Program-made: the position numbers and the translations under genes
Shown here: piece after piece, positions 2,649-47,958 of the stretch
Layout: every line of letters begins with the position of its first letter
How positions within the stretch are numbered: the stretch's first letter is position 1
The notes under the pieces: generated by a model
Told to the model about the DNA's origin: nothing
Databases searched by the model: none
What the model saw: the letters and a program-made list of their open reading frames with translations, nothing else
Source: Planctomycetaceae bacterium
GTDB taxonomy: Bacteria; Planctomycetota; Phycisphaerae; Sedimentisphaerales; Anaerohalosphaeraceae
DNA length: 64,000 nt
NCBI GenBank assembly: GCA_021372945.1
Contig: JAJFTK010000012.1
Span: 25,895-89,894 of the forward strand
Direction of reading: 5' to 3'

Positions 2649-5600
2649 ATGCCTATGAAAGACCAGACACAGGCGGAAGAATATCTTCGTATCCTGCGCG
2701 AGCGGGCGAAGGAACTGGACTGCCTCTACAAGGTTGATGAACTGCTCGCCGCCGAGAACCGGCCGCTTGCCGCGATCTTGCGTGATATCACAGAGGCGAT
2801 CCCCGCCGGCTGGCAGTATCCCAAGTACTGCCAGGCGAAGATCGTGTGCGACGATATAGTCTGCCAGACCCCCGGCTACGTCGATACGCCATGGAAGGAT
2901 GTTGCTCCGATCCGGGCAGATAACAAAACCGTGGGATTCGTCGAGATCTCGTATAGGCGGCCTGCGCCGCCTTCGCCCGAAGGGGTGTTTCTGGAGAAGG
3001 AAACCAAGCTGATCCACACCATCGCCGACCGTATCGGCCAGACCGTGTCGCACCGAAGACACGGCAAACAGCTTGCTGCAGAGAATGCCCCCGCTGCGGC
3101 CCAAGGCCATGAGTGGATGGTCATCGTCGATCTTCTCCGCCGTACCGATGAAAAACTGTATCTCTACATTGCGCGCAAAATGCTGCATCGTTTGTTTTGG
3201 AGCGGCGTTGCGGAATCACGCAGAGTGCTGCATATGTTTGGGGCCGATTTTGCCGCCGATAATGGCGAGGAGGGAACGGAGGGCAATGTGCCCAGCCGCA
3301 AACAGTCACGCAAAACCCTTTTTGAGGCCAGCGACCAGGTATTTGCGATCGCGGCCCGCCAGATGAACGACCAGGAGGCACTGTCGTGTCTTCGCCAGTG
3401 GATCCAGGAGAGCAAGCTCAGCTTCCTCATCAAGACGCTTGATACCGGCAACGCACCGCTGTCCAGCGTGATCGACGCCATCCATCGCTATCGCGCTCTG
3501 CCTGCTGACGAGGCGGTTCTTCCGTATTCGACTGAAGAATGGCTGAAGGTGTCGCTGATCCGTCGTTTTTTTTCCGACAACAGCGACTTTATCGGCATCG
3601 CCAAGAAGCAGCTTGTGGTCGCTGATTTTTTCGACCTGGCTGACCATATCATCTATCCGCCCGGAAGCAACGGCCGGTTAGGCGGAAAGAGCACGGGATT
3701 GTTTCTTGCGCGGCATATCCTTGAAAAAGCGGCCGCCGACAACCCTCTGGCCGCCCAGATCAAAACGCCCAAGACCTGGTACATGAGCGCCGACTGCATG
3801 ACGGAATTCTTGCGCTACAACGACCTGGAGGATGTCAACCAGCAGAAGTATAAAGAGCTCGAGCAGGTGCGCATCGAATACCCCAATATCATCCAGCTTT
3901 TTAAACACGGCCGTTTCCCGGATGACATCGTTAAAGGCCTCTCGCTGGCACTGGACGACATCGGCGAACGCGCCATCATCGTTCGCAGTTCCAGTCTCCT
4001 GGAAGACCGCGTAGGCACGGCCTTTTCGGGAAAATACAAGAGTCTTTTCTTATCCAACCTGGGCAATAAAGAGACGCGGCTGGAGGCTCTGTGCGACGCC
4101 ATCGCCGAGATATACGCCTCCGTATTCGGGCCCGACCCGATCCTCTACCGGGGCGAGCATGGGCTGGTCGATTTCCGTGAAGAGATGGGCATTATGATCC
4201 AGGAGGTCGTTGGCACACGTGTGGGCCCCTACCACATGCCGGTCTTTGCCGGCGTGTCGTTCAGCAGTAACGAGTTTCGCTGGTCGCCGCGTCTCAAACG
4301 CGAGGATGGGCTTGTTCGCCTGGTTCCGGGGCTTGGGACGCGCGCGGTCGATCGTATCAGCAACGATTATCCTGTCCTGCTGTCGCCGGGCCAGCCGGCG
4401 TTACGTGTCAATGTCAGCCCTGACGAGATCTGTCACTACTCGCCCTCCCGCGCCGATGTCATCAATCTCCAGACTCGCCGTTTTGAAACCATTCCCGTGC
4501 AGCGGCTTTTCAGTGAGTACGGCAGCGAGATACCCGCTCTCAGTCATATCGTCTCGGTCTATCGGGACGGGATCTTTCAGCAACTGACGCAGACGGAGAT
4601 CGATCTTAAGCGTGACACCCTGGTAGTCACCTTTGAAGGGCTCATCCGTCGAACCGAATTCGTCAAACAGATGCAGACAATCCTGCGGATTCTCGAGGAT
4701 GTTCTCGGGACTCCGGTCGATATCGAGTTTGCCTCCGACGGGACGGATTTTTACCTGCTTCAATGCCGTTCGCAGTTCACTGAAGGCAACGAGTCGGCCA
4801 GCATCATCCCGCAGAATATTCCCTCGGGCAAGGTTTTGTTTACGGCCAACCGTTTTATCTCCAACGGGCACATCCCCGATATCACGCATATCGTGTATGT
4901 TTCGCCGCAGCGTTACGCCGAGCAGACAAACATCGACGCGCTGGCCGATATCGGCCGGGCCGTGGGACGGCTCAATACGCTTTTGCCCAAACGCCGGTTC
5001 ATTCTCATGGGGCCGGGGCGTTGGGGCAGCCGGGGCGACATCAAGCAGGGAGTGCAGGTGACCTATTCGGACGTCAGCAATACGGCCGTGCTGATTGAGA
5101 TCGCGATGAGAAAGGGGGCGTACTCGCCTGAGCTTTCCTTCGGCACGCACTTTTTCCAGGACATGGTGGAGGCGCGGATCCGCTACATCCCGCTCTATCC
5201 GGAAGACCGCGGCGTTGTCTTTGACGAGCATTTTCTGGAGAATTCCCGCAACATGCTGCCGGCCGTGGTCCCGGAATACGAGCATTTAGCCGGCGTCATT
5301 CATGTCATCGACGTGCCCTTCTGCACCGGCGGCGACGTGCTGCGGATCCTGATGAATGCGGATATCGGCCAGGCGATCGGCTTTTTCACCGAGCCGGCGG
5401 CGCCCAGCGATAAACCGCTTGCCGCCCCCATGGTACGGGCACAGTCGGACGATTTCTGGCGATGGCGGCATCGAATGGCCGAGCAGCTTGCCCTGCGGCT
5501 CAAACCGGCTCGGTTTGGCATTCGGGCGATCTATCTGTTTGGCTCTACGGCCAGCGGCACGGCAGGTCCGGGAAGCGATATCGATCTGCTGATCCATTTC

Positions 5601-5816
5601 GATGGAACTGCGGCTCAGAAAGAGGAATTGCTGCTTTGGCTGGAGGGATGGAGTTTGAGTCTGGCTGAACAGAACTTCCTGCGGACCGGCTACATGACCG
5701 ATGGACTGCTGGATGTGCACCTGGTCACTGATTCGGACATTGCGCAGCGCACCAGTTTCGCCATCAAGATCAACGCCGTCACAGACCCCGCCCTACCCCT
5801 GCCCATGATGAAGTAG
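2649..5816 (+). CDS. PEP/pyruvate-binding domain protein with GAF-like N-terminus and C-terminal nucleotidyltransferase domain
   Basis: This is a large cytoplasmic protein of about 1055 residues. Numbering here is from a GTG at 2622. Residues ~45-145 look like a GAF-type sensor. Residues ~343-640 are the ATP-grasp-like PEP/pyruvate-binding domain of PEP synthase and pyruvate phosphate dikinase (GGKSTGL, VRSSSLLED, a PVFAGVSFSSN segment). Residues ~965-1055 hold a nucleotidyltransferase motif (FGSTASGTAGPGSDIDLL, with the GS and DxD metal-binding pattern). The phosphohistidine and PEP-utilising domains of a true synthase are not seen, so it is probably not a PEP synthase. The real reaction is unknown. 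GTG 2622, ATG 2649 and ATG 2655 are all possible starts; 2649 was chosen because 2622 lies only about 8 bases after the predicted transcript start. Confidence 0.8.
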   Translation: MPMKDQTQAEEYLRILRERAKELDCLYKVDELLAAENRPLAAILRDITEAIPAGWQYPKYCQAKIVCDDIVCQTPGYVDTPWKDVAPIRADNKTVGFVEISYRRPAPPSPEGVFLEKETKLIHTIADRIGQTVSHRRHGKQLAAENAPAAAQGHEWMVIVDLLRRTDEKLYLYIARKMLHRLFWSGVAESRRVLHMFGADFAADNGEEGTEGNVPSRKQSRKTLFEASDQVFAIAARQMNDQEALSCLRQWIQESKLSFLIKTLDTGNAPLSSVIDAIHRYRALPADEAVLPYSTEEWLKVSLIRRFFSDNSDFIGIAKKQLVVADFFDLADHIIYPPGSNGRLGGKSTGLFLARHILEKAAADNPLAAQIKTPKTWYMSADCMTEFLRYNDLEDVNQQKYKELEQVRIEYPNIIQLFKHGRFPDDIVKGLSLALDDIGERAIIVRSSSLLEDRVGTAFSGKYKSLFLSNLGNKETRLEALCDAIAEIYASVFGPDPILYRGEHGLVDFREEMGIMIQEVVGTRVGPYHMPVFAGVSFSSNEFRWSPRLKREDGLVRLVPGLGTRAVDRISNDYPVLLSPGQPALRVNVSPDEICHYSPSRADVINLQTRRFETIPVQRLFSEYGSEIPALSHIVSVYRDGIFQQLTQTEIDLKRDTLVVTFEGLIRRTEFVKQMQTILRILEDVLGTPVDIEFASDGTDFYLLQCRSQFTEGNESASIIPQNIPSGKVLFTANRFISNGHIPDITHIVYVSPQRYAEQTNIDALADIGRAVGRLNTLLPKRRFILMGPGRWGSRGDIKQGVQVTYSDVSNTAVLIEIAMRKGAYSPELSFGTHFFQDMVEARIRYIPLYPEDRGVVFDEHFLENSRNMLPAVVPEYEHLAGVIHVIDVPFCTGGDVLRILMNADIGQAIGFFTEPAAPSDKPLAAPMVRAQSDDFWRWRHRMAEQLALRLKPARFGIRAIYLFGSTASGTAGPGSDIDLLIHFDGTAAQKEELLLWLEGWSLSLAEQNFLRTGYMTDGLLDVHLVTDSDIAQRTSFAIKINAVTDPALPLPMMK

Positions 5817-5898
5817 AAAAGGCGGCTGCAACAGACCTCGCCGGCGGCTGCGATCTAGCGGGCATCAAAGCCGCGGTTTTGGTGCAAGAATAAAGGTA

Positions 5899-5927
5899 TT
5901 GACACAAAATAGAGGTTCTGGTATAGT
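5899..5927 (+). promoter_or_regulatory. Sigma-70 promoter of the tRNA-Arg gene
   Basis: TTGACA at 5899-5904 and TATAGT at 5922-5927 are 17 bp apart, near-consensus in sequence and spacing. The predicted transcription start is only a few bases before the tRNA. Confidence 0.85.
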
Positions 5928-37751: not shown

Positions 37752-40700
37752 ATGAAAACTCCAAGCTTTTCTTATGCGCGCCTTGCGCACAAATCCGTCG
37801 CCTGTCTCCTGGCGTTCTGCATGGTCAATTTGCCGGTGTGGGCGTTAAACGCCGGCGATGCCGCTGTATCGGCCGGAACAGCCAACATCACAGCCCCGGC
37901 CGCGAACACCGTCTCGGTTGAGCTGATCACCAACCGCGCGGTCCTGGACTGGACGCAGATGAACGCGACCAACAGTGAAACCCTGAACTTTAGCCGCGCC
38001 GGCGGCTTTGCCGTGCTCAACCGTGTGGCCTCCGCTGTTGATTTTAACGGCACCCTGAACGGCCAGGGCGGGCGCGTTTATATCCTCAGCCCCAGTATTA
38101 TCCTGGGCCCCGATGCCCGGATCAAGGCCGATACGTTCACTGCGGCGGCCATGAACATGACCAATCAGAATTTCATGGACGGCATCGATAAGTTCGAGCC
38201 GTTCGCCGGAGGCAGCGGCAGTGTCACCAATTACGCCAACATCACAGGCGGCCCGGACGGCGTGACCCAGCAGGTCAATCTTTTGGGCAAGACCATCGTT
38301 AATGAAGGAGTCATCTCACTTCCTTCCGGCGGCATAGCCGTAATGGCAGCAGGTGAGAAGATCTACCTGGGCGAGCCCGGCGGCAAAGTGATCGTTGAAA
38401 TGACCGGGGTCAAAGACGGCCAGGTTGTCAATAACGGCACTATCAATGCGCCCAACGGCAAGATCATCCTTGCCGCGGGCGATATCTACTCGATCCCGCT
38501 GCATCCTCAATACCAGGTGGGCGAAATCCCGGATGGAGAGCTTGATTACTCCGTGCCGGCCGATAAGGCGGTCATTGATGCACAGCCGATCATCGCCGAA
38601 TCCGGCGATGGCGCGGTTGTTCAGTCCGGCACGATCCATGCGGACGGCGGAGAAGTTATCCTTACTGCCGGAGATGATGTTCTGGTTGAAAGCGGCAGTG
38701 AGACATCGGCCAGAGATGGGAAGTTTACCGCGTATGCAAATGATTTCGGCAACTTTGATTCACAGACCATATTTGAAGATGGTGCCGCTGTTTATGTTGA
38801 TGGCGGTAAAGCGCAGTTCTATGGCAACCATCTGCTCTATGCGGGAGATACGATCACCCAGCCAGGCGCCAAGCTTTTTATCGGCTCGGAAGAGCTGACA
38901 ATTGCGGACGTCATGCTCGGCGGTGTTCCGGCATTGGATACGGTTTATGAAGAAATGGTTGAATACTATTCCAAGCAAGGTGTAGATCTGGATCTGGCTG
39001 GAGACATCCAGCTTACGGTGAAATACATGGCCGATGGCCAGATTTCCGGCGGCAGCGGCGACATCTATCTGCGAAATATCTTCGAAGACGGAGGCATATA
39101 CTTTGAGCGGCAGTACGAAGACGCCGCAACACCGAGCGGACCGCGCACCGCGATTCACACTACGGCTCATTACGTGTCGTCAACCGAGTACAGGGATGGC
39201 GGGAGTATTTATATGGATTCCGGCGCAAGCGGAATCGTTGCCGGCAATCTAATCACGGACACAATCAGCCCCGATAAAGTCAGCCAGCCCGGCGAGATTA
39301 TGCTGAGATCGAGTAACGGCGGCGACATCGAAGTTGACATGATGAAGGCGAATGGCGCCTATGATACGCAAGTCAGCGCCATCTCAAGCGGCGATCTAAT
39401 TGTTCATGGCGATGCCATATCCGAGAATAAGCAAGTTGATAACGTACAGCAGATTGTCTCAAGAGCTATCTTGTGCCTGGTTGCAGAAGGTGACGTGATT
39501 CTCGAAGGACAGAACTATAAGGTCACAAGCCACGGCAAACAAGAAACAACCGCCGATATCCGCATCTCAGCAGGCGATGACGTTTACGTCGGTTCCGCGG
39601 CAATCAGCGCTGAGGCCAAGACTTCAGAGGCAAAAAGTGTGACAAAGTCAACGGCCCTGGTCGTTGTCCGTGCAGGCACCGCGCAAGATGATCCGGGAGA
39701 GATCATTATCAACGGTGTGACTTATACGGCCGGCCAGTCGTTCCTGCCCGATGGCAGGCTTTATGCCAAGGCCTGGCCAGGCCCGTTTGCAATCGATTCG
39801 AGCGAAACGCCTGCGTCAACAAGCGGAAGCGAAACCACATGGCAGCAGAGCGGGACTCCGGCGGAGAAGTTCTTTGTCAGAATCGATGTTGACAATAATG
39901 CCGCGGCGCCCTGTTCCGATTGCCCTGTACCGCCGGGTCTGCCGCCCGTGCCGCATATTTTCTGGCTGGTCAACGACGAATTTGAAACGAGTTGGCGGTC
40001 GGGTAACGTCAGCGGCTTCGATCCTGAGACCCTTGATGTCCTCTTGAATGATGGTTTGACCTCTGATCCTACGGTTACATTGATTACAGATGTCAGTTTC
40101 GAAACGGCAAAAGGCGGCATGCTGACGCTGGTACAAATCGAAGATCCTGACACTCATCAGTTGTATTGGGCATTCGATTATACGCCTCCGACCGACCAGC
40201 CTTTTGTCTGGGACGGCACCAGTGACTATGCGACCTTCACGGATACATTTGAGTACCAGGCTCAGAAGGAAATCAAGGGCAGCATGGTTCTTTCAAAGAA
40301 TAAAGCCACTGTTGAGATTGCAGTGACCAATTTCCTGCCCATATTGGCGGACAGCAGCGATACGATCCATATGTCAACCGCAGGCAACCCGACCTCGTTG
40401 GGATTTGACCTGAGCAATCTCGTGGTGGACTCGGACGGTACGCCGGGAACGATCAATTACGGCGTTGTTGAAGGATTGATCCCTGTGGCCAACGGTTCGC
40501 TCGCGACAGATTCAAGCGTTGTTCCTGACACGCTGGCGATCAGCGGCGATGTGATCACATACAGCCCTCTTGACGGTTACGTCAGTCCGACCGACAGCCC
40601 GACGACATTCGGGTACAGCGTGGTGGACAGCAGTATCCTCAGCGCGCCTGAGACGCCCCTTGAGCAAACCGCGGATCTGCGGGTGACCGTTACCAATGCC

Positions 40701-42650
40701 CTGCCGGGCGGCGATGTCGTGCTTGAAGACGCTCACATGAATGCCGTCGGAGAAACGGTCGGCGTTGTAAGCGGCAGCCTGACCGATCCGGACGGAGACG
40801 CGATTCTCGAAGAAGTGATCACCCCGGCGACCGATGACTATAACAAATCCTACGGCGGAACGCTGGTGGATAATGGCGACGATACCTTCACTTACACGGC
40901 CGATTCACGGCTGCCCGGTTACACAGGCGAAGATGACTTCGATGCCAGCCTGTGGGACGGACAGATGAATTACTACATCGACGGCAGCAGTGAAAAGGTG
41001 TACGGAACCGGCAACATCGATTTGAATATCACGAACGATCTGCCCGGCGGCGATGTATGGCTGGGTACGACAAACATGGATAGCGGCATCACCAACGGCA
41101 GCATCGTCAGCGGCAGCTTTACCAACGGCGATGGCATTCTGTCGGTTGAAGTGACCGGTCGCTCCAGCGAGGATTACAACCACTCCTATGGCGGAGACCT
41201 TGTGGCCAACAGTGACGGGACGTACGATTATACGCCCGACGCGCTTCTGCCTGGTTATACCGGTGACAAGGTCGATAATTTCGATGATGCCGGGTATGTC
41301 ATATCTCAGAACGCGGATGATCGCTTCGATGTACGCTTGTGGAACGGCGAGTATGATTACTCCGATTTCAACTTTGAAGAAACAGGCGGCAAGGGCGAAA
41401 ACAATCTGGCAAAAGTTTACGGCCAGGGGACTGTGTCGGTCGATATCACCAACACACCGCCGACGGTCACGGACAGCCAGGCGATCGCTCACATGAATAC
41501 GGTTATCCAGGGGCAGCTTGGGGCTTCCGACACAACCGACGCGATCACCATTGTGCCGGGCAGTCCTGTGAGCGAATTCGGAATTGGCGTCACGCTGACC
41601 ACGAATCCCGACGGCACGATTTCATACACGTATACGCCTGCGGACGGGTACGTCGGCGCCGACAGCTTTGACTTCAGCGCCACCGATGGCGAGCGGAACT
41701 ATGTCTTCTCTTCCGAGGGTGCCATTGTCAGCGACGAACTCGTAACAGTAAGCGGCAAGGTGTCGCTTGAATTGACCAACATCAAACCGACGGCTCAGGG
41801 CGACCTGGGCGAGGTCACCACGCCGGACCCGATCCCGCAAAATGGCATCACATCGCCGGTACAGGTGACTGACACGTTCGACCCGCAGCAGACGACGCCT
41901 GATACGCTGAGCATCGTGCCGGGCACCTACACCGGCAACCAAGGCGGCACGCTGCTCTTCGACGGCGCGGCTTGGACCTATACTCCGGCTGAAGGATTCA
42001 CGGGCCAAGAGACGTTCACGGTCAATGTCTGGGACGGACAGAATGTGTACGAACAAGGCCAGAAGGTCGCTTCCGATTACGGGACAGGCACCGTCCTGGT
42101 CAGCGTTACGTCCGAGACGCCGGAAGTGCCGGTTCCGCCGCTGCCCGTGCTGCGTTTGCCGCAACTGAAGGGCTGCCCTGCCTTGATGGATGCCGCGGCT
42201 TCCGAACTGGCCATCAACTCCGATGAATTGCAGCTATTGCTTAGTAACTCGCTGGCTGAAAACCCGAATATGCAGCCGTGCGACGCCTGCGAACAGCTTG
42301 TGGATGCGTCCGCGATCCTGAAGGATCCGGATGGGCAGAGAATGGCCGCGCTGGCTCAGATCTTTAATACGCTGGCGCCGGCTGACGCGCCGCTCACGCC
42401 TGAAGTTCAGGCGTCCGTCGCCACTGCTTTTGCAGACGTGACAAACCAGGATGCGCAGTACGCGCTGGCCAGTGATTACGTTGACGCGTTTGCCAAGTAC
42501 ATAGCAGTCGTTCAACGCGATCTGAAGATGCCGGTGGGCGACCCCGTGGCGCTGGTGCTGCAGAAGTATGGAACCGCGATCAGTGAAAGCACTAACCCGA
42601 ATATCGCGGCCTATATCACTGCACAGATGACCGCAAACGGATCGCTGTAA
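37752..42650 (+). CDS. Two-partner secretion exoprotein (TpsA), with TPS domain and tandem Ig/cadherin-like repeats
   Basis: This is a 1632-residue exported protein. A signal peptide (residues 1-~30, ending PVWALNAG) is followed by the filamentous-haemagglutinin-type TPS secretion domain (about 30-165, with TLNGQGGRVYILSP) that the TpsB partner recognises. Next comes a beta-helix-like region (about 170-700), a cysteine-bearing linker (CSDCPVPPGLPPVP near 720), five cadherin/Ig-like repeats (about 857-1455), each starting with a V/I-T-N-x-x-P element, and an alpha-helical end with CPALMDAAASEL and CDACEQL. It is very likely a surface adhesin or binding protein. The helical C-terminal domain with four cysteines is unusual for TpsA and has no family I know. 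GAGGGG precedes the ATG. Confidence 0.85.
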   Translation: MKTPSFSYARLAHKSVACLLAFCMVNLPVWALNAGDAAVSAGTANITAPAANTVSVELITNRAVLDWTQMNATNSETLNFSRAGGFAVLNRVASAVDFNGTLNGQGGRVYILSPSIILGPDARIKADTFTAAAMNMTNQNFMDGIDKFEPFAGGSGSVTNYANITGGPDGVTQQVNLLGKTIVNEGVISLPSGGIAVMAAGEKIYLGEPGGKVIVEMTGVKDGQVVNNGTINAPNGKIILAAGDIYSIPLHPQYQVGEIPDGELDYSVPADKAVIDAQPIIAESGDGAVVQSGTIHADGGEVILTAGDDVLVESGSETSARDGKFTAYANDFGNFDSQTIFEDGAAVYVDGGKAQFYGNHLLYAGDTITQPGAKLFIGSEELTIADVMLGGVPALDTVYEEMVEYYSKQGVDLDLAGDIQLTVKYMADGQISGGSGDIYLRNIFEDGGIYFERQYEDAATPSGPRTAIHTTAHYVSSTEYRDGGSIYMDSGASGIVAGNLITDTISPDKVSQPGEIMLRSSNGGDIEVDMMKANGAYDTQVSAISSGDLIVHGDAISENKQVDNVQQIVSRAILCLVAEGDVILEGQNYKVTSHGKQETTADIRISAGDDVYVGSAAISAEAKTSEAKSVTKSTALVVVRAGTAQDDPGEIIINGVTYTAGQSFLPDGRLYAKAWPGPFAIDSSETPASTSGSETTWQQSGTPAEKFFVRIDVDNNAAAPCSDCPVPPGLPPVPHIFWLVNDEFETSWRSGNVSGFDPETLDVLLNDGLTSDPTVTLITDVSFETAKGGMLTLVQIEDPDTHQLYWAFDYTPPTDQPFVWDGTSDYATFTDTFEYQAQKEIKGSMVLSKNKATVEIAVTNFLPILADSSDTIHMSTAGNPTSLGFDLSNLVVDSDGTPGTINYGVVEGLIPVANGSLATDSSVVPDTLAISGDVITYSPLDGYVSPTDSPTTFGYSVVDSSILSAPETPLEQTADLRVTVTNALPGGDVVLEDAHMNAVGETVGVVSGSLTDPDGDAILEEVITPATDDYNKSYGGTLVDNGDDTFTYTADSRLPGYTGEDDFDASLWDGQMNYYIDGSSEKVYGTGNIDLNITNDLPGGDVWLGTTNMDSGITNGSIVSGSFTNGDGILSVEVTGRSSEDYNHSYGGDLVANSDGTYDYTPDALLPGYTGDKVDNFDDAGYVISQNADDRFDVRLWNGEYDYSDFNFEETGGKGENNLAKVYGQGTVSVDITNTPPTVTDSQAIAHMNTVIQGQLGASDTTDAITIVPGSPVSEFGIGVTLTTNPDGTISYTYTPADGYVGADSFDFSATDGERNYVFSSEGAIVSDELVTVSGKVSLELTNIKPTAQGDLGEVTTPDPIPQNGITSPVQVTDTFDPQQTTPDTLSIVPGTYTGNQGGTLLFDGAAWTYTPAEGFTGQETFTVNVWDGQNVYEQGQKVASDYGTGTVLVSVTSETPEVPVPPLPVLRLPQLKGCPALMDAAASELAINSDELQLLLSNSLAENPNMQPCDACEQLVDASAILKDPDGQRMAALAQIFNTLAPADAPLTPEVQASVATAFADVTNQDAQYALASDYVDAFAKYIAVVQRDLKMPVGDPVALVLQKYGTAISESTNPNIAAYITAQMTANGSL
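40320..42117 (+). repeat. Five tandem Ig/cadherin-like coding repeats in TpsA
   Basis: Repeats begin near 40320, 40690, 41030, 41445 and 41775, each with a TN-x-x-P element; they share YGG-LVDN-DGT-YTP and LPGYTG words. Repeats two and three are most alike (about 110-135 residues each), so they are the most recent duplication. Confidence 0.7.
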
Positions 42651-43872: not shown

Positions 43873-44349
43873 ATGAAATTTATTCTGATAGACAAAGTAA
43901 CCGCACTGGATCCCGGTAAACAGTTATCGGCCGTCAAGAGTGTATCGCTTGCCGAGGAGTATCTGGGGGATCATTTCCCAGTTTTCCCGGTTATGCCGGG
44001 TGTTTTGCTGCTTGAGGGATTAGTGGAGTCGGCCAGTTGGCTTGTGCGTCAATTCCAGGGTTTTTCCAATAGCATGGTGCTGCTGGAAAACGCCACGAAT
44101 GTGAAGTACAAGAGCTTTGCCGCGCCCGGGATGCAAATCCAATATACGGTCACGGCAACGGCAATCGAGGAAAACGCCAGCAGCTTCAAAGGGGTTGGCT
44201 TTTGCGGCGATGAAGCGATCGTTGAAGCCAAATTGACGTTACGGCACTTCAATTTGGCCTCAGAAAATCCTAAAATGGCGCACGTGGACGGCACCGTTAT
44301 CGAGAATATGAAACAGCGATGGAAGCTGTTATACGCCGGAAATGAATAG
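43873..44349 (+). CDS. Hotdog-fold 3-hydroxyacyl-ACP dehydratase-like protein 1 (FabZ family)
   Basis: The 158-residue protein keeps the FabZ/FabA active-site pattern: His34 in DHFPVFPVMPGVLLLE and Glu48. Dehydratases of this type remove water from 3-hydroxyacyl-ACP. It starts a five-gene locus with a long ACP, a second FabZ-like protein and two ketosynthases, so it likely acts on an acyl chain held on that ACP rather than in housekeeping synthesis. FabZ normally is about 145 residues, so the length fits. No convincing -10/-35 pair was found in the 214-bp gap upstream (43659-43872). Confidence 0.85.
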   Translation: MKFILIDKVTALDPGKQLSAVKSVSLAEEYLGDHFPVFPVMPGVLLLEGLVESASWLVRQFQGFSNSMVLLENATNVKYKSFAAPGMQIQYTVTATAIEENASSFKGVGFCGDEAIVEAKLTLRHFNLASENPKMAHVDGTVIENMKQRWKLLYAGNE

Positions 44350-44384
44350 ATATTATATTGGAAAGTAATGGAGGCTGAATTCTT

Positions 44385-44777
44385 ATGGCTATGAGCCGAG
44401 ATGAGATTTTTGAAAAAGTACAGGAAGTACTTACGGATGCGCTGGGCCTGGATGACGATGAGGTCAAAGACGAGTCAACGCTTATGGGCGACCTTGGAGC
44501 CGAAAGCATCGATTTTCTTGACATTATTTTCCGGCTCGAGAAGGCCTTTGATATCAAGGTGCCTCGCGAGGAACTGTTTCCCGCCGAGGCTATCTTGAAC
44601 AACCCCGAGTTCGTCAGCGGCGGCAAGTTAACGGCTGCGGGGCTGAACGAATTACGCAGCCGAATGCCGCACACGGACCTGGCTTCTTTTGAAAAAGATC
44701 CGGATGTCAATAAGATCGCCGATCTGTTCACGGTCAACGCCATTGTGAATTTCGTCAGCAAAAAAGTAAATGGTTGA
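44385..44777 (+). CDS. Acyl carrier protein with extended C-terminal part
   Basis: The 130-residue acidic protein has the phosphopantetheine-attachment Ser41 in DLGAESIDFLD, following the usual helix I (EIFEKVQEVLTDALGL). Normal ACPs are 75-85 residues. Here about 45 extra residues fall between the second helix (FDIKVPREELFP) and the last helix (FTVNAIVNFVSKK), including LTAAGLNELRSRMP. The insert may bind a dedicated partner enzyme. GGAG lies before the ATG. The neighbours on both sides are dehydratase genes. Confidence 0.9.
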   Translation: MAMSRDEIFEKVQEVLTDALGLDDDEVKDESTLMGDLGAESIDFLDIIFRLEKAFDIKVPREELFPAEAILNNPEFVSGGKLTAAGLNELRSRMPHTDLASFEKDPDVNKIADLFTVNAIVNFVSKKVNG

Positions 44778-44796
44778 TCTTTAGAAACGGTAATAA

Positions 44797-44831
44797 GAAT
44801 CGGCAGGGTTCGTTCGAACGATCCTGCCGAT
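44797..44831. promoter_or_regulatory. Long nested hairpin between the ACP and second dehydratase genes
   Basis: AATCGGCAGG (44797-44806) pairs with CCTGCCGATT (44822-44831), and inside this lies the perfect palindrome TCGTTC/GAACGA (44809-44820). Together they make a nearly uninterrupted 16-pair stem with no T-run after it. It lies within an operon, so it may act as a processing or attenuation element setting ACP levels above the following enzymes. Confidence 0.75.
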
Positions 44832-44849
44832 TGTTTCATTGGGTGTATC

Positions 44850-45332
44850 ATGCGGTGGATATGGATCGATAAATTTTTGGAATTCGAGAGCGGCAAGAAA
44901 GCCGTGGCCTTGAAGAACGTCACGCTGGCCGAAGAACATCTGCACGACCATTTTCCGGGATTTCCGGTCATGCCCGAGTGCCTGATGATCGAAGCGATGG
45001 CGCAGACGGGCGGGATCCTGGTCGGCGAGGCGCGTCGATTCCGCGAAAAGGTGATCCTGGCCAAGATCAAGAAGGCGGTATTTCATAAGTATGTCCGCCC
45101 CGGCGATACGATCACGCTGCACGCGGAAATCGAATCCATTTCGCCGGAAGCGGCCAGCATCAACGGAGAGATCCGGCGAGGGGAAGAACGCATCGCGCAG
45201 ATCAGCATGATCTTTAGCCATATCGACAAGAATTTGGCGGGCAAAAAATTCCCCGAAGAGAATTTCGTCTTTACGGACATGTTCAATTCACTGCTGAGCG
45301 GCTTTATTTCTTCGACGGAGCCGGCGGCATGA
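44850..45332 (+). CDS. 3-hydroxyacyl-ACP dehydratase-like protein 2 (FabZ family)
   Basis: The 160-residue hotdog protein has the active His34 in DHFPGFPVMPECLMIE and Glu48 with the following AMAQTGG of FabZ. Relative to FabZ, MPG is MPE here, a small change next to the active site. It pairs with dehydratase 1 in the same locus; two copies may act on different chain lengths or form a heterodimer. Its last four bases overlap the next gene (ATGA), which indicates translational coupling. The ribosome-binding site is weak. Confidence 0.88.
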   Translation: MRWIWIDKFLEFESGKKAVALKNVTLAEEHLHDHFPGFPVMPECLMIEAMAQTGGILVGEARRFREKVILAKIKKAVFHKYVRPGDTITLHAEIESISPEAASINGEIRRGEERIAQISMIFSHIDKNLAGKKFPEENFVFTDMFNSLLSGFISSTEPAA

Positions 45333-46654
45333 GCAAGCGACGCGTGGTCATCACGGGGGTTGGCGCCGTCACGCCGCTGGGACTTACAAGCCAGGATTTC
45401 TGGCACGGTCTGCTGGAGGGGCGTTGCGGGATCTCCCCGATCAGGGCGTTCGATCCGGCGCGCTATCCGTGTCAGCTTGCCGGCCAGGCGCCGGAGTACA
45501 AGATCAAAGATTACGTGCCGAAATTCTACCGCAAAGCAACCAAGCTGATGAGCCGGGATATTGAACTTTCCATTATTGCGGCCAATGAAGCGATTCGAAA
45601 CAGCGGGCTTATTACCAAGGCGGCCGAAACAGGGTCCGTAACCGTCCTGCCGCAAAGAACGGCAATCAGTATCGGGGCCGGCCTGATCAGTTGTGACATG
45701 CTCGAAATCGCGCCCTGTGTTGCCATGTCTTCAAACGACGGCCGCTTCGACTTGCACAAATGGGGCAGCGAAGGCATGCAGGCATTGACGCCGCTTTGGC
45801 TGCTGAAGTATCTGCCGAATATGCTGCCGTGCCATATTGGGATCATCCACGACATCCAGGGGCCCAGCAATACCATTACCTGCGGTGAAGCGGCAAGCCA
45901 CATAGCCGTTGATGAAGCCTGCGATATGATCATTCGCGGGGATGCGGAGGCGGCACTGGCCGGCGGCTGCGAGGCCAAGGTAAATCCTATCGCCCTGTTG
46001 CGGCAATGCCTGCTCAAACGTTCTGCGTTCAACCGCAATGACGATCCGGAACATGCCTGCAGGCCGTTCGATGCCGAGGCGTCCGGCTCGATCTTCGGCG
46101 AGGCGGCAGGCGTGATCGTGTTGGAAGAACTGGCGTTTGCCAAATCAAGAAATGCCGTGATCCTGGCTGAGCTGGCCGGAGGCGGCTCCAGCAGCAGCCT
46201 GCACGCCGATGGCCGGCACCTTGAACCGGACGGCAAAGGGCTCGAGACTGCCATTCGCAGCGCCCTTGAATCCGCCGGCGTGCGGCCGCAACAGATCGAT
46301 TTGATCATCCCCGCCGGAACAGGGATCCCGCAGGATGATCGTGCCGAGGCGACCGCTTTGAAGGCCGTATTCGGTTCCGCCCTGTCCAAGATCGTCGTAT
46401 GGCCGATCAAGAGCATGATCAGCCATACGGGCGCTGCCGCGGGGGCTCTGGACCTGATAGCCGCCGCCCGCGCGATACACAATGCGCAGATCGGACCCAG
46501 CCGGAATTTCAACAAACCGGCCAACGGGTGCGAATTGAACATTTCAAGTTCGCCGCTGAAAAAACCATTCCATTGTGCATTGTGCTGCGGTTACACCTTT
46601 GGCGGCCAAACGGCGGCTTTGGTAATCAAGAAATACGAGGATGCGCTGCCATGA
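45329..46654 (+). CDS. Ketosynthase-like protein without catalytic Cys and first His (chain-length-factor-like)
   Basis: The 441-residue protein has the full ketosynthase fold (RRVVITGVGAVTPLG start, FGEAAGVIVLEE, GYTFGGQTAALV end). In the active-site loop the frame reads ITCGEAASH; aligned with TACAAS of its neighbour, the nucleophile cysteine is Glu187. The first catalytic His is replaced by Ala329 (PAGTG for THGTS); the second is kept (His366 in SHTGAAAG). This resembles the KS-beta or chain-length factor of type II polyketide and aryl-polyene systems, where Gln often replaces Cys. It probably forms a heterodimer with the next protein. It is joined to both neighbours by four-base overlaps. 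Confidence 0.8.
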   Translation: MSKRRVVITGVGAVTPLGLTSQDFWHGLLEGRCGISPIRAFDPARYPCQLAGQAPEYKIKDYVPKFYRKATKLMSRDIELSIIAANEAIRNSGLITKAAETGSVTVLPQRTAISIGAGLISCDMLEIAPCVAMSSNDGRFDLHKWGSEGMQALTPLWLLKYLPNMLPCHIGIIHDIQGPSNTITCGEAASHIAVDEACDMIIRGDAEAALAGGCEAKVNPIALLRQCLLKRSAFNRNDDPEHACRPFDAEASGSIFGEAAGVIVLEELAFAKSRNAVILAELAGGGSSSSLHADGRHLEPDGKGLETAIRSALESAGVRPQQIDLIIPAGTGIPQDDRAEATALKAVFGSALSKIVVWPIKSMISHTGAAAGALDLIAAARAIHNAQIGPSRNFNKPANGCELNISSSPLKKPFHCALCCGYTFGGQTAALVIKKYEDALP

Positions 46655-47958
46655 GAAAACGCGTCGTCATAACCGGGATGGGCATCGTTTGTCCGTTGGG
46701 ACATGATGTCCAAAGCATGTGGGAAGGGCTGATGACGGGAAGATCCGGCGCGGGCCCAACCACGCTTTTTGACGCCTCCACGTTCCCGACTAAATTCGGG
46801 GCCGAGGTCAAGGACTATGATCTGGCCAAATTCGTAAAGCGGCTGCCGCTGCATCAATATGCCAATCGAGGTTCACGATTCGTTCTGGGTGCGTGTGTGC
46901 AGGCATGCCGACAGGCAAGCATCGATCTTGAAACAGATCAGCCGCAAGACGGCATCGATCGAACGAGACTGGGCGTATATCTGGGGGCCGGTGAAGGCTC
47001 GGTCGACAACGAAGCCTTTTTTGGCGCGATTGCCGAAGCGTGGGATGGTTCGGCCAACCGTATGGATTGGGCAAAATGGACCGAAGTTTCGCTTTCTAAA
47101 ATGGTGCCGCAATTGGAGATGGAACAAGAGCCCAATCTGCCGGCAGGTCACCTGGCTCTTTTGACGGGCGCCCGCGGCGTCGTTCGAAGCTGCCTGACCG
47201 CCTGCGCCGCGAGCACGCAAGCTGTCGGCGAAGCGGCGATGCTGGTTCGAAACGGCAAAGCGGATGTGATGATCGCAGGCGGCGCTCATTCGATGATCCA
47301 CCCGCTGGGTGTGACGGGCTTTAATCGTTTGACCGCCCTATCCACGCGGAACGACAGTCCGACTACCGCGTCGCGACCTTTTTCGGCCAGCCGCGATGGG
47401 TTTGTCCTCGGCGAAGGGGCGGCGATAGTGATTCTTGAGACGCTCGAATCCGCATTGAAGCGCAAGGCCCCGATCCTTGCGGAATTCATCGGCTTTGGAA
47501 GCAGCAATGATGCATTCCGTGTGACCGACATGCACGAAGAGGCCAGGGGCGCTGTACAGGCGATGCATGCGGCATTAAAAGATGCCGGCGTTAGTATCGA
47601 TGAGATCGATTATATCAGCACGCACGGGACCAGTACGGCCGAGAACGATTCCATTGAGACGCTGGCGATCAAGAAGGTGTTTGGCGAACGAGCCAAACAT
47701 GTACCGGTCAGCAGCCCCAAGAGCCAACTTGGCCATCTGATCGGGGCCACAGGATGCGCCGAATTGATCACCTGCATTAAGGCGATCGAAGAAAATGTGC
47801 TGCCGATGACAATGAACTTGAATGATCCCGATCCTGCCTTGGACCTGGATTATGTCCCCAACGCGCCTCGCAAGGCTAAGGTCGATGTAGTGATGAGCGA
47901 GTCATTCGGGTTCGGCGGGCAGAATAATGTTTTGATCCTGCGGCGGTTCAGAGGTTGA
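46651..47958 (+). CDS. Beta-ketoacyl-ACP synthase (FabF-like, active; KS-alpha)
   Basis: The 435-residue condensing enzyme has an intact triad: Cys185 in TACAAST, His325 in STHGTST and His362 in KSQLGHLIGATG, with Lys357 and the GFGGQNN loop at the end. It joins malonyl-ACP to an acyl chain by decarboxylative condensation. The true start is the ATG at 46651, overlapping the previous stop by four bases; the open frame upstream belongs to the previous gene's other phase. With the preceding degenerate ketosynthase it is the likely KS-alpha/KS-beta pair. No ketoreductase is seen in the window, so it must come from elsewhere. Confidence 0.93.
   Translation: MRKRVVITGMGIVCPLGHDVQSMWEGLMTGRSGAGPTTLFDASTFPTKFGAEVKDYDLAKFVKRLPLHQYANRGSRFVLGACVQACRQASIDLETDQPQDGIDRTRLGVYLGAGEGSVDNEAFFGAIAEAWDGSANRMDWAKWTEVSLSKMVPQLEMEQEPNLPAGHLALLTGARGVVRSCLTACAASTQAVGEAAMLVRNGKADVMIAGGAHSMIHPLGVTGFNRLTALSTRNDSPTTASRPFSASRDGFVLGEGAAIVILETLESALKRKAPILAEFIGFGSSNDAFRVTDMHEEARGAVQAMHAALKDAGVSIDEIDYISTHGTSTAENDSIETLAIKKVFGERAKHVPVSSPKSQLGHLIGATGCAELITCIKAIEENVLPMTMNLNDPDPALDLDYVPNAPRKAKVDVVMSESFGFGGQNNVLILRRFRG

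Follow-up and report, generated by a model that had tools for sequence, protein, structure and literature searches.

A five-gene block with two adjoining ketosynthases

What might a bacterium build with two dehydratases, an extended acyl carrier protein (ACP) and two adjoining ketosynthases (KS), one of which has lost its catalytic cysteine? The question is raised by positions 43873-47958 of the window, the whole stretch of 64,000 nucleotides that was analysed. The initial annotation had proposed two FabZ-like dehydratases, a 130-residue ACP, a degenerate KS and an intact KS, and all five were confirmed as open reading frames, in the following order:

43873..44349, + strand: DH1, FabZ-like dehydratase subunit (158 aa; Pfam FabA, 56.9 bits)
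44385..44777, + strand: ACP130, acyl carrier protein (130 aa; PP-binding, 41.4 bits)
44798..44832, + strand: hairpin between the ACP130 and DH2 genes (RNA folding of the intergenic stretch)
44850..45332, + strand: DH2, FabZ-like dehydratase subunit (160 aa; Pfam FabA, 64.4 bits)
45329..46654, + strand: KSβ, Cys-less ketosynthase, chain-length-factor-like (441 aa; Glu187, Trp157)
46651..47958, + strand: KSα, ketosynthase with Cys-His-His (ATG at 46651)

Both KSβ and KSα carry the N and C domains of the Pfam ketoacyl synthase. Four-base ATGA overlaps link DH2 to KSβ (45329-45332) and KSβ to KSα (46651-46654). The overlaps had been said to join the last three genes, which holds for DH2-KSβ-KSα; ACP130 stops 72 bases ahead of DH2 and stands outside the overlapping set. 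Among the nine window proteins scanned, the neighbours of the block are a large secreted protein, a TPR protein and the products of ComEC-like and OmpA-like genes, and the window contains no gene pointing to a product, a starter, a release enzyme or an enoyl reductase. A short-chain dehydrogenase/reductase (SDR) on contig C48 was considered as a FabI candidate and rejected, its best-scoring models being other SDRs.

The gene set is conserved across Planctomycetota

Among the best 80 of 545 confirmed matches, kept as named loci, the five genes occur in identical order in 61 of the 63 loci with room for them, and KSβ is followed downstream by KSα in all 76 with room for that pair; the genes thus keep together in Planctomycetota, a check that had been suggested. 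KSβ matches of at least 310 bits were found in 39 of 41 related genomes, the exceptions being G015, with a completeness of 85%, and G021, with 76%. In a sample of 195 genomes from the phylum, ACP130 was found in 58, with a weakest best match of 152 bits; the next match below this is one second copy at 74.7. The KSβ profile matched in 63 genomes and, because it also catches KSα and FabF, the nucleophile residue was read in every one of them. A Cys-less KS was present in 55, alongside ACP130 in 53 and without it in two (G036 and G065). The remaining eight comprise four genomes of one family (f22) with a Cys-bearing KS in the KSβ slot, three with FabF-like matches and no ACP130 (G081, G118 and G189), and G196, where ACP130 is present, KSα only was found and no Cys-less KS reached the threshold. 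Both proteins therefore occur in 53 of the 195 genomes, the KS only in 2, the ACP only in 5 (four of them the f22 genomes) and neither in 135 (Fisher p ~3e-39, kinship not corrected for). The co-occurrence holds also where the parts are unlinked, and in those f29 genomes whose gene context was read (G058, G076 and G211) the Cys-less KS is unlinked and present in two copies per genome. Each of the 29 genomes listed for the window's class has the system, 27 of them with ACP130, and several other families have it too.

KSβ has lost the nucleophile and keeps a probable ACP-docking surface

KSβ Glu187 coincides with Cys163 of E. coli FabF (mature numbering), both in a profile-to-PDB alignment and when aligned with that protein by MAFFT. 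Ala329 occupies the place of the first His and the second His (His366) is kept, bearing out both substitutions as first described; since most relatives keep the first His and lose the second, Ala329 is a local trait. The window's KSα aligns with E. coli FabF as Cys-His-His. Over 59 KSα-KSβ pairs, the Cys, His, His and Lys of KSα are each retained 59/59, and the nucleophile place of KSβ holds Glu in 55 and Asp in 4, so that a degenerate KS does stand beside an active one in every pair. Across the phylum this place is mostly Glu or Asp and rarely Asn, Gln or Ser, with a single Gln among the matches (L138, G178). The neighbouring Cys185, proposed beforehand as the residue that could overturn this assignment, aligns two residues before FabF Cys163 and was rejected as nucleophile. 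Although Cys185 is invariant in a 46-row set, many of the 26 proteins labelled KSβ lack a Cys at this place (e.g. L151, L154, L156, L181 and L182).

The longest invariant run of KSβ, nine residues with Trp at 133, corresponds to FabF 133-141, and those of KSα correspond to FabF 397-404 and 160-165. Arg64, Lys65 and Lys68 of KSβ are kept in 59/59 rows, while KSα has Asn (34/59), Pro (42/59) and His (59/59) at these places. FabF is reported to contact AcpP via Lys65, Arg68 and Lys69 together with Ile129-Phe132 (PMC7138838). The conserved KSβ patches, which were chosen after seeing the data, align with these ACP-binding residues. An AF2 monomer model of KSβ reached a pLDDT of 91.4. In the profile-to-PDB alignment, entries 9s5h and 9s5i are two-chain KS entries.

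KSβ might instead be an enzyme in its own right, a KSQ-like malonyl-ACP decarboxylase that primes the chain. The acid at the nucleophile place is isosteric with Gln, the Lys335 equivalent of KSβ is kept in 56/59 pairs and the ACP-docking residues are maintained. However, decarboxylation of the KSQ type needs both His, and among the 46 rows both are kept in only 2, one in 41 and none in 3; the same-class loci L171-L174 and L176-L178 have neither His at its place. We regard this reading as quite improbable.

KSβ looks like a chain-length factor derived from an active ketosynthase

In a careful tree of 58 rows, from which polyketide synthase (PKS) rows were left out, KSα and KSβ together form a clade of their own against FabF (support 100/100), within which KSα forms one clade (100/98) and KSβ with KS1 another (100/92). 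A clade separate from FabF with a conserved Glu had been named as favourable evidence, and the position is acidic in 46 of 46 rows (Glu 40, Asp 6). KS1 denotes the same-operon homologues of L148 and L149, which have an intact triad and are sister to the Cys-less KSβ rows; in their family, f22, the Cys of the KSβ-slot homologue is kept in four genomes and the whole triad in the two that were read fully. Triad-bearing homologues, anticipated as counter-evidence, thus do exist, but they branch at the base of the KSβ clade and so show where KSβ came from. That the f22 protein keeps its Cys also indicates that the pairing was not forced by Cys loss. Taken together, the acid at the Cys place, the conservation of the ACP patch and the triad-bearing sister let KSβ be read as a chain-length-factor-type partner, which on sequence grounds looks to have arisen here from an active enzyme. 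This may capture the birth of a chain-length factor (CLF): one family retains Cys in both KS and others have Glu or Asp, in rare cases Asn, Gln or Ser, so that the transition from an active to a half-dead pair could be replayed.

The arrangement resembles the KS-CLF of type II PKS (actinorhodin; ishigamide Iga11-Iga12), in that an active KS adjoins a full-length Cys-less KS to which it is coupled, with the exception of the f29 genomes read, where it is unlinked. Gln is typical at the CLF nucleophile position and is found in the Streptomyces CLF of L192, whereas KSβ has Glu or Asp. Moreover, unlike in these systems, KSα groups with KSβ, at whose base stands a Cys-bearing homologue, and a dedicated dehydratase pair and a long ACP accompany them. 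A quick tree of 83 rows put the CLF row within KSβ, its branch of 2.18 carrying an unsure flag. For ishigamide, the ACP is described as interacting with the CLF of the complex (PMC8358021). Divergent FabF paralogues of Rhodopirellula baltica, NP_865682 and NP_866153, were tabulated by Rattray 2009 (PMC2649909): Asp163/His298/His333 of the former matches the sites of L154, residue 300 being Met there and Lys in L154, and Glu163/His298/Leu300/Asn333 of the latter matches those of L156. Function, partner, operon and dehydratase context are not given for them in the portion of that source available.

The dehydratases appear to share one conserved composite site

The earlier description made no comment on the His/Glu pattern of the dehydratases. 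In DH1 the catalytic His is kept in 68/68 homologues and the Glu has become Gln in 17/68; in DH2 the catalytic Glu is kept in all 78 readable rows (the 79th is truncated there) and the His is replaced in 12 of 79 rows and gapped in 2, rows L148, L149 and L207 being gappy and L110 having a His one residue away. On a quick tree with long branches, DH1 Glu changed 8 times and DH2 His 6 times; DH1 His and DH2 Glu never changed. The predicted composite site of DH1 His and DH2 Glu is kept in all loci, and 19 of 57 have lost the other one. In the window itself all four catalytic residues are present in DH1 and DH2, so that only relatives show loss of the second site. Hot-dog dimers form active sites from both subunits (PMC2698920), and the one-sided conservation implies that DH1 and DH2 form a predicted heterodimer with one conserved composite site, that is, a FabZ active site split between two genes. 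The predicted arrangement would resemble mycobacterial HadAB, a heterodimeric hot-dog dehydratase with one working site that acts on very long chains, although HadB supplies both catalytic residues (PMC4491049) where here each subunit would supply one. A His-Asp dyad from one subunit (the hydratase 2 motif) was not found, the conserved His lying in DH1 and the conserved Glu in DH2, and both subunits are FabZ-type.

These patterns also bear on whether the block is just a housekeeping operon for ordinary fatty acid synthesis, whose duplicates are drifting and form no heterodimers. Its proteins are indeed FabZ- and FabF-like. However, the genome has a separate canonical FabF, adjoining an ACP-like ORF (L168), which scores 596.8 against the FabF equivalog TIGR03150 (cutoff 493.75); KS1 of L148 also passes (503.8), and KSβ (289.6) and KSα (450.3) both fall below. 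One-sided loss and conservation in both enzyme pairs and the nine-residue invariant motif of KSβ argue in the same direction, and this explanation, already disfavoured, is very improbable.

ACP130, the reductase and the candidate products

Ahead of its last helix ACP130 carries a conserved insert (about 64-110, ~45 residues), and Ser41, in the motif GAESID, is invariant in 24 rows (family A3). Its AF2 monomer model has a pLDDT of 89. An assignment as AcpXL was not supported by PDB or NCBIfam ranking; 2kw2 matched at E 8.5e-8, behind many ordinary ACPs. As first noted, the window block has no reductase gene, which proved to be a trait of the lineage, as SDRs lie inside the operons of relatives. 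That of L155 is FabG by NCBIfam, those of L202, L203, L205, L206 and L210 are 67-73% identical to it (BLAST), and those of L150, L152 and L183 were judged by eye from the first residues only. In the loci read, whose flanks are partly annotated, FabG-like SDRs are the only non-core genes between core genes. Two candidate general partners were rejected: a GH3 ligase, which is close to the KS pair in L108, L111 and L113 only, and an alpha/beta hydrolase, close to it only in these, in L107 and, weakly, in L155. Searches of the window's genome, one of them run without a positive control, found neither.

KS-CLF with a ketoreductase (KR) and a dehydratase (DH) is a recipe for polyenes (PMC10698177), and with no enoyl reductase the double bonds would stay; the block could thus be a highly reducing type II polyketide synthase making a conjugated polyene. 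It fits that FabG-like SDRs are the only further genes seen between the core genes, and a Streptomyces plasmid cluster (L193) encodes a 136-aa ACP, a KR, a pair of DH and neighbouring KS (a total of three KS), besides fabD and a KS III. An enoyl reductase could, however, come from ordinary fatty acid synthesis, the scanned flanking genes include no tailoring genes, and KSα and KSβ form their own clade against FabF, polyketide rows being placed on long branches only. That every one of the 29 listed class genomes has the system further speaks more for a structural lipid than for a pigment, and we consider the polyene unlikely. The KS-pair part of the earlier suggestion of a polyketide or aryl-polyene pair stands, and its aryl-polyene part was rejected on gene content: the E. 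coli CFT073 cluster (L191) also has KS plus CLF, DH, KR and ACPs, but its CLF, ApeC, has 240 aa against 441 for KSβ, and aryl-polyene tailoring genes are absent from the flanking window genes scanned. A ladderane product was rejected too, since the ladderane cluster carries radical SAM and phytoene-desaturase-like genes (PMC2649909) and neither kind is among the nine window proteins scanned.

Alternatively, the block may be akin to the rhizobial system for very-long-chain fatty acids (acpXL-lpxXL), with a link to lipid A. That cluster similarly brings together a special ACP, FabZ and two KS; unlike here, it has one FabZ and adjacent dehydrogenase and acyltransferase genes (PMC11901934). All 58 ACP130 genomes are among the matches to PF03279 (lipid A acyltransferase), but so are 170 of 195 genomes, so that the profile discriminates little and its link to lipid A is weak. 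The window genome's own copy (C108), the only one found, is on another contig and not beside the operon. PRK06508 and PRK06519, which we take to be the NCBIfam models of the XL proteins, gave 47.4 (cutoff 83) and 65.2 (cutoff 320), and PRK06519 scores higher on ordinary FabF (73.5). This kinship appears rather doubtful.

A proposed acyl-chain elongation system

We favour a dedicated type II acyl-chain elongation system of Planctomycetota, built on putative KSα-KSβ and DH1-DH2 heterodimers and supplying an envelope-lipid chain, at a probability of roughly 0.6. The growing chain would be carried by the system's own ACP130. The Cys-His-His site of KSα would perform every condensation, with KSβ docking the ACP and lining the far end of the KSα acyl tunnel in the manner of a chain-length factor. 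Dehydration would take place at the site formed by DH1 His and DH2 Glu. Keto reduction would fall to a FabG, which some families encode within the block and which is here presumably shared from ordinary fatty acid synthesis. The finished chain may then be handed to an envelope lipid. Sequence comparison supports the conservation of the gene set, the origin of KSβ from an active KS, its loss of the nucleophile and one-sided conservation in both pairs; that the product is a long chain for an envelope lipid is a guess. The spread of the system through all 29 listed class genomes (ACP130 in 27) and into several further families points to a lipid so far unrecognised in this phylum, known for odd membranes. 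A fuller version we hold more tentatively, at somewhat short of an even chance: KS and FabZ dehydratase, unrelated enzymes of fatty acid synthesis that are ordinarily homodimers, would both have become obligate heterodimers with one retained active site each across the lineage, KSβ being a chain-length factor that originated within it from a still-extant active ancestor type and FabZ a split-site enzyme, to make an undescribed envelope lipid chain on a new extended class of ACP. Among open-licence papers, none that the searches listed was recognised as an account of what this operon does.

The hairpin at 44798..44832 was not reported by a terminator scan and is a possible attenuator or RNA processing site. 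The whole intergenic region folds at -25.6 kcal/mol (z -3.6), and z fell below -2 in 37 of the 65 ACP130-DH2 intergenic stretches folded, from 72 loci with both genes.

Organization of the operon and its carrier protein

The five ORFs that the initial annotation had reported are all present, in the order given below. Within the window, DH2 and KSβ overlap by four bases (ATGA), as do KSβ and KSα, and 72 bases separate the end of the ACP gene from DH2. The upstream neighbour of the operon is a TPR protein on the opposite strand, and on the downstream side lie a 424-residue ORF, putatively serS by eye, and a ComEC-like gene.

43873-47958, + strand: DH1 (FabZ-like dehydratase), ACP (130 residues), DH2 (FabZ-like dehydratase), KSβ (Cys-less ketosynthase), KSα (Cys-His-His ketosynthase)
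44798-44832: hairpin in the ACP/DH2 gap
37752-42650: flanking protein of 1632 residues, putatively secreted, that contains Big_9 and Cadherin_5 domains and whose N-terminal start resembles by eye a haemagglutinin-type adhesin

The entire ACP/DH2 intergenic fold has an energy of -25.6 kcal/mol (z -3.6), and z was below -2 in 37 of 65 folded loci, with varying sequence; the hairpin may set an excess of ACP. Two ORF clusters, putatively ABC-permease-like by eye, recur in the left flank, at the DH1 end of the operon, in L064, L088 and other named loci (c6 in 25 loci, c7 in 24).

The carrier protein, ACP130, carries GDLGAESIDFLDI and a conserved insert ahead of the last helix. In an AF2 model (pLDDT 89, pTM 0.79) the insert is ordered and consists chiefly of short helices; the Foldseek matches were ordinary ACPs, 65-101 residues long, of which just one had E <0.001.

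The five-gene system is conserved

We compared the best 80 of 545 loci, here the named loci, which lie on MAG contigs labelled mostly Planctomycetota, Phycisphaerae, Phycisphaerales or Sedimentisphaerales (two are labelled merely 'uncultured bacterium' and one Kuenenia). Among those of the 80 with room, KSα lay downstream of KSβ in 76/76, and DH2, ACP and DH1 lay upstream in 75/75, 66/68 and 65/67; L094 and L110 are without ACP and DH1 at the locus. A KSβ match of at least 310 bits was found in 39 of the 41 nearest genomes.

Across 195 genomes of the phylum, the ACP profile matched 58 (weakest best match 152 bits; one genome has a second copy, at 74.7 bits) and the KSβ profile 63. The latter include 29/29 of the listed genomes that belong to the window's class or are closer still, and the ACP is present in 27 of these. 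Because the KSβ profile also picks up KSα and FabF, the nucleophile was read in all 63. A Cys-less ketosynthase was found in 55, 53 of them with ACP130 and two (G036, G065) without. Four genomes of the planctomycete family f22 (G051, G071, G086, G134) have ACP130 and a Cys in the KSβ slot; G196 has ACP130, but the adjoining ketosynthase found among its KSβ-profile matches was Cys-bearing only, and G081, G118 and G189 gave FabF-like matches without ACP130. The association of ACP130 with a Cys-less ketosynthase in the 195 genomes (Fisher p ~3e-39) is inflated by kinship.

The five genes keep together in 61 of 63 loci with room among the best 80 of 545, but not in other families of the window's class, where a DH1-ACP-DH2 block stands apart from the KS pair, nor in family f29, whose block reads DH1-FabG-ACP-DH2 (some genomes also have KSα in it) and whose Cys-less ketosynthases are located elsewhere. 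The parts of the system stay together even when unlinked; the five-gene system is real and conserved.

Origin of KSβ and signature of a predicted heterodimer

In a careful tree, KSα (24 rows, 100/98) and KSβ together with KS1, the Cys-bearing ketosynthase in the KSβ slot of f22 genomes (27 rows, 100/92), formed sister clades, jointly separated from FabF at 100/100. This tree left out 25 of 83 rows, 16 for thinning and nine that were long or divergent (polyketide and aryl-polyene rows and the KSβ of L153, L160 and L179). A quick 83-row tree gave the same two groups (support 99 and 95) and placed Streptomyces CLF within KSβ on a branch flagged unsure. KS1 of L148 and L149 has an intact triad (TACSA, SAHGT, GHLI), and that of L148 has the KSβ motif in the form PLWLLKHLPNM. 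In the careful tree the sister group of KS1 comprises all 25 Cys-less rows (100/99). The simplest reading is one duplication of an active ketosynthase, followed by a single loss of Cys.

Constraint on the two subunits was compared in 59 KSα/KSβ pairs from the named loci (best 80 of 545) and the window, in E. coli FabF numbering. KSα retains Cys, His, His and Lys in 59/59, and its longest invariant stretches fall in the gating loop (397-404) and the nucleophile loop (160-165). Mean modal frequency over all FabF columns was 0.79 for KSα vs 0.72 for KSβ, and this order was reversed at 129-149 (0.76 vs 0.92), a window chosen, like 58-80, post hoc after the data had been seen. The longest invariant run of KSβ is 133-141, with Trp at 133 in 59/59, where FabF has a Phe that reaches into the partner's pocket. 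The largest excess of KSβ over KSα conservation is at 58-80: Arg64, Lys65 and Lys68 are invariant in KSβ, and KSα has Asn (34/59), Pro (42/59) and His (59/59) there. The AcpP contacts of FabF described in an excerpt of PMC7138838 include Lys65, Arg68, Lys69 and Ile129-Phe132. KSβ thus appears to be the ACP-docking subunit on this side, and the post hoc windows carry weight because they are located on these published contacts. Arg127 and Lys128, the other basic contacts of FabF, are conserved in neither subunit. The system would be a heterodimeric type II synthase in a new variant form, with heterodimers predicted from sequence.

One predicted composite dehydratase site is preferentially retained

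The catalytic His and Glu of FabZ come from different subunits. DH1 has its His in 68/68 rows, and its Glu is replaced by Gln in 17/68; DH2 has its Glu in 78/79 (the remaining row, L106, is truncated there) and its His in 65/79, replaced in 12 and gapped in two (L149 and truncated L106). Among 57 loci with both genes, all four residues are complete in 38, as in the window; the others have DH1 Gln only (8), DH2 Asn only (3), DH1 Gln with DH2 Asn (5) or Tyr (1), and intact DH1 with DH2 Arg or a gap (2). Both DH1 Glu and DH2 His are gone in L054, L077, L080, L081, L093 and L098, and this joint loss would leave only one composite site, His from one subunit and Glu from the other, able to work. Minimum changes on a concatenated tree were 8 for DH1 Glu, 6 for DH2 His and 0 for DH1 His and DH2 Glu; with sites equally likely, 14/14 changes on one composite site has a chance of ~1 in 8,000, a rough figure given the quick tree, the gaps in some rows and the counting of reversals. 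An excerpt of PMC2698920 describes hot-dog dimers with active-site residues contributed by both subunits. The mechanism is more interesting than the one initially proposed.

Relation to published proteins

In the part of Rattray and co-workers (2009; PMC2649909) consulted, R. baltica NP_866153 is tabulated with Glu163, His298, Leu300 and Asn333, the pattern of L156, and NP_865682 with Asp163, His298 and His333, that of L154. The Cys-to-acid change is therefore already in print, and because the f29 site patterns match these proteins we think that f29 is Pirellulaceae. In the portions of the literature searched, a partner, operon or split dehydratase of a Cys-to-acid ketosynthase is not described.

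Most f29 genomes have one Asp-type and one Glu-type Cys-less ketosynthase; the few exceptions include G192, with three Asp types (L242, L248, L283), and G117, with two Glu types (L247, L250). In L156 (7576-12147) the Glu-type KSβ adjoins ordinary fabF-, acp- and fabD-like ORFs, not KSα.

Candidate product

Two dehydratase subunits, two ketosynthases, the special ACP and, in some families, FabG would make up an elongation cycle minus the enoyl reductase; a shared enoyl reductase would give a saturated chain, and its absence a polyene. An envelope lipid is weakly suggested by the occurrence of the system throughout the class and by a lipid A acyltransferase in 58/58 ACP130 genomes (yet in 170/195 overall). 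The window's genome (146 contigs, 95.86% complete) has one further PF00109 ketosynthase, a canonical FabF on C33 (596.8 bits), and two additional FabA/FabZ-type matches (C43, C130), so the operon is unlikely to be the sole fatty acid synthase of the cell. The C43 match (5532-5900) is a FabZ-type domain within a 437-residue open frame, a possible LpxC-FabZ fusion.

In a few relatives KSα is directly followed by genes for an alpha/beta hydrolase and a GH3-type ligase; neither had a match in the window's genome. They lie downstream of the KS pair in L108 (12742-18405), L111 (12845-15588) and L113 (8355-11190), a divergent subgroup whose GH3-type ligase weakly resembles the lyso-ornithine lipid synthetase OlsH.
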